Positions 14,641-53,301 of a stretch of 53,301 nucleotides of DNA are shown piece after piece. Source of the DNA: an uncultured Opitutia bacterium (GTDB lineage: Bacteria; Verrucomicrobiota; Verrucomicrobiia; Opitutales; UBA953); the NCBI GenBank assembly GCA_903850885.1, contig CAINMU010000114.1, positions 1 to 53,301 of the forward strand. The letters are read 5' to 3'. Position 1 is the first letter of the stretch. The number at the start of each line of letters is the position of its first letter. The notes beneath the pieces were generated by a model, which searched no databases, had not been told where the DNA came from, and saw only the letters and a program-made list of their open reading frames with translations. A program made the translations under genes and the position numbers.

Positions 14641-15010
14641 CAGTCATATACGCGCATTCGCACGGAGCAATCCGTGAGGAAAGTCCGGACACCATAGGGC
14701 AGGATTCCCGCCGCAAGTCGGGGCACGACGCAAGTCGTGACGGAAAGTGCCACAGAGAAGATACCGCCTCCTCCGCAAGGAAAGAGGTAAGGGTGAAAAG
14801 GCGGGGTAAGAGCCCACCGCTCGAAGGGCAACCAACGAGGCATGGTAAACCCAATCCGGTGCAAGACGAACAGGGACCGTTCGAGGTCGCCCACCAAGGT
14901 CCCGGGTTGTCGCATCGCCGCAAGGCGAGATTGAAAGATCAGAGAAATGAATGTGCAGGGGATCGGCGAGAGCCACCCAAGGACAAAATCCGGCTTACAG
15001 TATATGGCTC
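14641..15010 (+). ncRNA. rnpB: RNase P RNA (bacterial type A)
   Basis: This is the catalytic RNA that matures tRNA 5' ends. Conserved region I reads gaggaaagtccggacacc (14691 on), the central conserved part reads ggtaagagcccacc (14803 on), the tRNA-CCA-binding L15 motif is ggtaaaccc (14842 on), and the 3' conserved strand is acaaaatccggcttacag (14983 on). Helix P1 is visible: 14642-14650 pairs with 15001-15009 (9 bp including one G-U), which fixes the ends near 14641 and 15010. A strong terminator follows. The length of about 370 nt fits type A. Confidence 0.96.
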
Positions 15011-15017
15011 AAAAGAC

Positions 15018-32555: not shown

Positions 32556-32632
32556 GGTAGTGTAGCTCAGTTGGTTAGAGCGCCGGACTCATAAGCCGGA
32601 GGTCGGCAGTTCAATTCTGCCCACTACCACCA
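32556..32632 (+). tRNA. tRNA with CAU anticodon, probably elongator tRNA-Met
   Basis: A 77-nt cloverleaf with encoded CCA: acceptor arms ggtagtg (32556-32562) and cactacc (32622-32628), D-arm gctc/gagc, anticodon loop ctcataa (anticodon CAT), T-arm ggcag/ctgcc. The G1-C72 acceptor pair argues against the initiator. Elongator Met is most likely; a lysidine-modified tRNA-Ile2 cannot be ruled out from the gene alone. The base pair closing the anticodon loop would be an A-G mismatch. Confidence 0.93.
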
Positions 32633-52983: not shown

Positions 52984-53117
52984 GGGGATATATTCTAAAT
53001 ATTAGACCCTGCTCGCAACGGGAAGTTGCTCGTTAGGGTAAAATCCCTAAGCACCTTAAAATTAAATTAAGTCCGAAAATATTAATCAGGGATGAAGTCT
53101 CAACGTCTGGCTCTCAA

Positions 53118-53141
53118 GGTAGGGATGCGATGACATCGCAT
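53118..53141 (+). repeat. Partial copy of REP-like palindromic element
   Basis: It begins with ggtaggg like the complete element at 53218, followed by the palindrome atgcgatg-a-catcgcat (53125-53141). The second half of the full element is not visible, so this looks like a truncated or diverged copy. Confidence 0.45.
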
Positions 53142-53217
53142 TCGCTGTAAGGTATTCATTCTCAGGTTGCAGGTGGCAGCCCCGGGCAACGGGTGGCAGG
53201 ATTAATCTCGGGTCTCA

Positions 53218-53273
53218 GGTAGGGCTGATCACCCTTGATCAGCCGCGGTTGAGCGAGGGCGCTCAACCCTACC
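53218..53273 (+). repeat. Cloverleaf-like palindromic repeat (REP/BIME-type)
   Basis: The outer arms ggtag (53218-53222) and ctacc (53269-53273) enclose two perfect 9-bp hairpins: ggctgatca/tgatcagcc (53223-53231, 53236-53244) and ggttgagcg/cgctcaacc (53247-53255, 53260-53268), each with a 4-nt loop and separated by only gc. All bases except the loops and the gc are paired, which would fold into a three-way junction on either strand. It looks like a non-coding mobile REP-type element. Confidence 0.6.
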
Positions 53274-53301
53274 CGATGCATCTTGCCGCCACCCGCCACC
53301 T

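Follow-up and report, generated by a model that had tools for sequence, protein, structure and literature searches.

A REPIN of two inverted GTAG-type REPs in the genome of an uncultured Opitutia bacterium and its probable link to a RAYT

The 56-nt element at positions 53218-53273 of the DNA analysed here is a REPIN, composed of two inverted REPs of the GTAG type that lie 2 nt apart; we use this name because two inverted REPs at so short a distance bear it in the literature. The window, that is, the whole stretch of 53,301 nucleotides under analysis, is contig C114 of a draft genome of 2.34 Mb in 152 contigs (hereafter G000). In our judgment, the element is very probably a non-autonomous repeat that owes its spread through intergenic DNA to a HUH/Y1 RAYT whose gene lies on contig C73. 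We base this reading on the structure of the element, on its copy number and intergenic bias, and on a RAYT gene bracketed by the same REPs, as well as on hairpins that track the groups of RAYTs, on higher copy numbers in genomes with the cognate RAYT, and on a differing content at orthologous places. The initial annotation had proposed a RAYT-mobilised repeat with a partial copy nearby. The copy number and the REPIN and REPs on either side of the C73 gene speak for the first part as a probable reading, while the partial copy proved to be a mistake.

Folded as single-stranded DNA, the element reaches -21.3 kcal/mol (z -6.6), a value equalled by 0 of 200 shuffles, which bears out the nearly full base pairing that had been ascribed to it. 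At its base is a 5-bp foot (GGTAG/CTACC), above which stand two perfect 9-bp hairpins, each closed by a 4-nt loop and separated from the other by 2 nt. Read from the outer ends inward, both halves begin with GGTAG and continue with a GG...CC hairpin of 22 nt: the X REP (53218-53244, plus strand) carries GGCTGATCACCCTTGATCAGCC and the Y REP (53247-53273, minus strand) carries GGTTGAGCGCCCTCGCTCAACC, with the spacer GC at 53245-53246; neither the spacer nor the REPIN as a whole is assigned to a strand. The two REPs have the same apex and hence loops that are complementary on one strand; as this accounts for the complementarity, we make no claim of loop-loop kissing between the hairpins. No ORF of at least 60 aa covers 53218-53273. 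Moreover, three GTAG-tagged hairpins crowd the final 184 bases: GGTAG occurs 81 times in the window on both strands, and the three occurrences that precede a qualifying hairpin (first letter G, at least eight pairs) all lie inside 53118-53273. The same scan returned no hit in the reversed window, nor for any of eight permuted 5-mers. X, Y and a third REP, at 53118, each consist of a palindrome headed by a GTAG tag.

A count of such elements in the genome, which the initial annotation had proposed as a check, gave 29 strict copies in G000 (16 forward and 13 reverse, the whole unit measuring 54-56 nt), compared with 0 for the reversed pattern searched as a control. Two close inverted REPs therefore recur as a unit. 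The 29 copies fall into 17 distinct forms, one of which is common to 13 letter-identical copies; the window REPIN is one compensated pair away from it (C:G to T:A), and this form of the window REPIN, GATCACCCTTGATC, is also found in the related genomes G008, G016 and G025. The looser pattern GGTAGGGN17-18CC occurs 352 times, versus 54 for its reverse. Two of the 29 copies lie by at least half within an ORF of at least 200 aa. In the five longest of the stretches used (78,520 bases), 81% of the sequence is taken up by ORFs of that size; many other stretches in the overlap count were about 1 kb long, which reduces the ORF length that can be seen. Overall, the copies are biased to intergenic DNA, and the high copy number and mainly intergenic location are those of GTAG-type REPs.

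The search for a RAYT-type transposase gene, the second check proposed, was likewise successful. A profile search of G000 with Y1_Tnp (PF01797) returned two genes, and a protein search returned those two together with a third; the three RAYT-like genes lie on contigs C73, C149 and C21. The C73 product scores 27.9 bits against Y1_Tnp (cut-off 23) and 86.1 bits against the NCBIfam equivalog REP_Tyr_transpos (cut-off 80), has 4er8 ('TnpArep') as its closest solved structure (E 2e-7), and carries the H-x-H and Y..NP motifs. It is thus a REP-associated Y1 HUH transposase. The C149 product, with 75.8 bits, is under the REP_Tyr_transpos cut-off of 80. The C73 gene (locus L030, 1423-1890) has a copy of the REPIN at 1274-1329 and a lone REP at 1341 upstream of it. 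At its other end, the stop codon is overlapped by 1885-1911, an inverted REP of that type, so that the gene stands between two inverted, genome-repeated REPs, as in a REPtron. REPs of the X type flank this RAYT, and the Y type is also present upstream of it. The C149 RAYT is flanked by ATGACCGGCCC(T)GGTCAT and GCGTGCGGCCCGC(A/G)CGC REPs, and the C21 RAYT by GGCAGCACCGCGTGCTGCC REPs. A single copy in the genome and the lack of a Y1/RAYT transposase had been named beforehand as counter-evidence; the genome holds 29 copies and RAYT-like genes.

GC-rich intergenic DNA abounds in short palindromes, and one could suppose that two unrelated ones came to lie side by side with no link to a transposase. 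To this we assign an almost negligible probability, since it leaves the copy number, the RAYT linkage and the genus-wide pattern unaccounted for and since the copies next to RAYT genes contradict it. If the C73 RAYT did spread the REPIN, REP DNA would have to become single-stranded, whereupon each REP would fold into a perfect 9-bp hairpin. By analogy with the published biochemistry of other RAYTs, the C73 enzyme would then recognise the GTAG foot and, through loop recognition, the hairpin apex; it may cut beside the REPs and would transfer the strand to a new site. The dinucleotide CT, published as the cleavage site of other RAYTs, occurs within 10 nt outside the foot at 14 of 27 left ends and 13 of 27 right ends, which we estimate to be about chance and which counts against this reading.

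Stable hairpins located mainly outside long ORFs could also belong to a structured RNA or a transcription terminator, whose hairpins would act in RNA and which chance or selection, and not a transposase, would have spread, and Di Nocera et al. (2013, PMC3733652) describe many REPs as plausibly transcribed and acting as RNA elements. We nevertheless hold this to be very unlikely as an explanation of the element: no Rfam family covers it at the gathering threshold, at which the whole window yields only a Bacterial class A RNase P RNA (14642-15013) and one tRNA (32556-32629), and a terminator does not explain 13 letter-identical copies or the adjacency to a RAYT. A secondary RNA role of the REPIN is possible.

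The third REP (53118-53143, plus strand) consists of GGTAG and GGATGCGATGACATCGCATTC, with a mismatch close to the base of the stem. It is what had been taken for a partial copy of the element, with which it has only GGTAGGG in common; it is a complete solitary REP from another family. An identical hairpin, ATGCGATGACATCGCAT, flanks the RAYT of locus L084 (G028:C18). Complete copies of this type occur elsewhere in G000, for instance at C17:10181 and C42:4065 among the matches listed, and the DNA downstream of the C149 RAYT has a variant of it at a distance of 208 bp. A truncated REPIN at 53118 was ruled out, as the arms match that other family. The inverted AGGTGGC motifs reported around the cluster are indeed present: AGGTGGC (53171-53177) and GGGTGGC (53191-53197), on the plus strand to the left of the REPIN, are inverted relative to GCCACCC (53288-53294) and GCCACCT (53295-53301), on the minus strand to its right and reaching the contig end. 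Similar units adjoin REPINs in loci L131-L134 and L138. These motifs are a separate degenerate repeat class and not part of the REPIN. In G000 and its relatives, short units (CAGGTGGC/GGGTGGC, CAGGTCTC, GTTGACC, TCCCCATG, TTTGCACC) recur beside REPs in degenerate arrays, which often form long imperfect inverted repeats (in the window and in L014, L026, L131-L136 and L138).

As the window ends where contig C114 ends (53301 bases), 28 nt past the REPIN, and as contigs C17, C69 and C141 also end in REPINs, it has to be asked whether the assembly has brought together, at this contig end, pieces that lie apart in the chromosome. In genome G025 (contig C9, L134), about 1.5 kb with coding sequence separates two similar REP clusters, and relative to it, G000 has the left side of the first cluster joined to the right side of the second (window 53100-53301). 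The stretch missing from G000 may reflect a deletion between repeats or an assembly collapse, both being possible. As an account of the element, however, such an artefact is highly improbable: the order REP, AGGTGGC units, REPIN and inverted units recurs in G025 at 90% identity, the REPIN and the right-hand units recur in G008 and G015, and the element itself is present in 29 copies. Draft assemblies of this genus often break at such repeats, and the REPINs suggest why.

Strict REPINs were found in 29 of 55 genus genomes and in none of 40 further genomes that represent the family and order. A generic GGTAG-hairpin RNA model matched 53 of the 55 and 6 of the 40; as at most 81 candidates were scored per genome, its high per-genome counts are lower limits. 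A RAYT match at E 1e-6 was obtained in 28 of the 55 genus genomes. Genomes with a C73-type RAYT (73-100% identity; n=6) carry on average 14.2 strict REPIN copies, versus 1.8 in those without one (n=49; one-sided Mann-Whitney p 1e-4, a test that ignores kinship and assembly completeness and in which one overlapping G025 match is counted twice). Counting against a strict link, 23 genus genomes have strict REPINs with no C73-type RAYT detected, for which gene loss or gaps in the draft assemblies are possible reasons. The flanks of 31 RAYT loci, out of 56 match rows, were surveyed with a strict hairpin test: REPs lie within 320 bp on both sides of the gene at 25 loci, on one side at four, where two of the genes stand at contig starts, and on neither side at two, where GGTAGG elements with imperfect hairpins are still present. 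A simple pattern scan found H-x-H in 30 of the 31 proteins (all except that of G028) and Y..NP in all 31. The C73-type RAYT of G001 (L075, G001:C54) is in two pieces, 95-96% identical to the G000 gene, and is probably broken or misassembled. Longer Y1_Tnp proteins of a different subclass, with open frames of about 310-330 aa, were also observed in the genus beside the shorter RAYTs (L056, L058, L059, L061, L062 and L064).

Insertion sites were compared between relatives, as the initial annotation had suggested for strains; REPIN content does differ at some orthologous places, but a clean empty site was found neither at the window locus nor at C95, C17, C105, C60 or the RAYT locus. At the window locus, the left flank is matched in G010, G025 and G001 (95-96% identity) up to 53145, 53200 and 53106, respectively; beyond these points their REP content differs from that of the window, and G001 and G010 have a REPIN-like unit in the opposite orientation. 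The REPIN of C95 is common to G000, G001 and G010. That of C105 is present in G000, G001 and G025 and absent from G010, where the intergenic DNA differs too. Upstream of the C73-type RAYT, a REPIN is present in G000, G001 and G040 and absent from G004, and G008 and G040 have an extra one downstream. This differing content is consistent with gain and loss of REPINs. The gene next to the C73-type RAYT on the upstream side does not change across the six genomes, while a similar gene downstream is inverted in three of them; this fits the published observations that rayt genes stay at a fixed location (Nunvar et al. 2010, PMC2817692) and act like housekeeping genes (Corneloup et al. 2021, PMC8266576). 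Separately, between contig C17 of G000 (L012), which has a REPIN at its start and another at its end, and G001:C73, blocks of several kb are reordered and reoriented, with REP clusters at the junctions.

The RAYT groups of the genus carry their own REP hairpins. In a tree of the 31 RAYTs, which has 11 open forks and several long branches, proteins with the same hairpin apex were seen by inspection to group together: six of the C73 type (ACCCTT/GCCCTC and variants), four of the C149 type (GGCCC, once GGCTC), G002 with G047 (CTCCG), G011 with G050 and G054 (CTACG), G000_C21 with G033 (CCGCG) and, with weaker support, G010 with G023 (CTGCG) and G009 with G034 (CCACG). When the REPs around a single RAYT are compared between strands, the apex tends to be the same and the mid-stem different. 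Across 27 loci, the mid-stem difference is 0.381 between opposite strands (142 pairs) versus 0.099 on the same strand (113 pairs), and 0 of 5000 strand shuffles gave as large a difference; since this test takes in orthologues, a second run was limited to a single locus for each RAYT type (15 loci) and gave 0.371 versus 0.082 and again 0 of 5000 shuffles. Both tests admit near-perfect hairpins only, so that compensated stem changes arise partly by construction. The apex differs about as much on the same strand (0.248) as between opposite strands (0.232; 27 loci), and the first three apex letters are identical in 109 of the 142 opposite-strand pairs from one locus, versus 236 of 3368 pairs between loci, orthologues included. 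Two of the 27 loci (G028 and G009) have no strand difference, and the C21 locus has two REP forms on one strand. Covariation across 19 hairpins (all cells paired; 54 changed on both sides versus 14.0 in shuffles) is partly circular, because these hairpins came from hairpins found by pairing, and we do not count it as evidence.

The combination of a common apex with a stem that depends on the strand deserves further attention. We tentatively raise the possibility, without favouring it, that the REP hairpin might work as a two-part address, in which the apex (top pair and loop) would name the RAYT and the mid-stem, mainly positions 3-7, would name the side. If so, the loop would select the transposase and the stem would tell the two ends of the unit apart, and, with about fifteen RAYT/REP types in one genus, the recognition code could be read from natural variation. 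The diverged RAYT/REP pairs form a natural panel for how a single-strand transposase picks its hairpin. Moreover, RAYT/REP systems are hereby firmly placed in a genus of the Opitutae, a little-studied lineage.

REPINs, the co-evolution of RAYTs and REPs, dimorphic REPs and the GTAG repeats of Opitutus are all in print; the kind of element described here is therefore already known, and the element adds a member to it. A literature search for REPINs or repetitive extragenic palindromic repeats in Verrucomicrobi- returned Di Nocera et al. (2013), the rest being off subject by title, and one for the REP-associated tyrosine transposase in Opitut- returned none. As in the REPINs defined by Bertels and Rainey (2011, PMC3116915), two inverted REPs form a larger hairpin in single-stranded DNA, occur in many copies and are linked to a RAYT; unlike the REPINs they describe, the present one has a host in the Opitutae, REPs only 2 nt apart and stems that differ between its two REPs. 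In Opitutus terrae, Di Nocera et al. (2013, PMC3733652) describe GTAG families together with head-head dimers at a spacing of 1-2 bp and with REPtrons that are repeat-specific. Compared by description and not by sequence, the element resembles those families in its GTAG tag, in stems of up to 9 bp, in the several families per genome, in the repeat-specific REPtrons and in the verrucomicrobial host, and it resembles GTAG-17 in particular in its head-head dimer 1-2 bp apart. According to Corneloup et al. (2021, PMC8266576), perfect palindromes are recognised in a loop-dependent mode. Their group 3 TnpAREP/REP pairs, e.g., that of Stenotrophomonas maltophilia, in which the loop is critical and much of the stem tolerates change, combine a perfect 8-9 bp palindrome beside GTAG with a short loop, as here; the likeness of our RAYTs to group 3 is one of REP shape only, namely the perfect palindrome. 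Finally, Nunvar et al. (2010, PMC2817692) reported RAYTs between inverted REPs, their co-evolution and dimorphic REPs. Like the systems of that survey and of its 2013 successor (PMC3686654), those described here have inverted REPs flanking the RAYTs, hairpins that follow RAYT phylogeny and two REP forms per RAYT; unlike those surveys, which concern gammaproteobacteria, the present one finds about fifteen types within one genus of the Opitutae.
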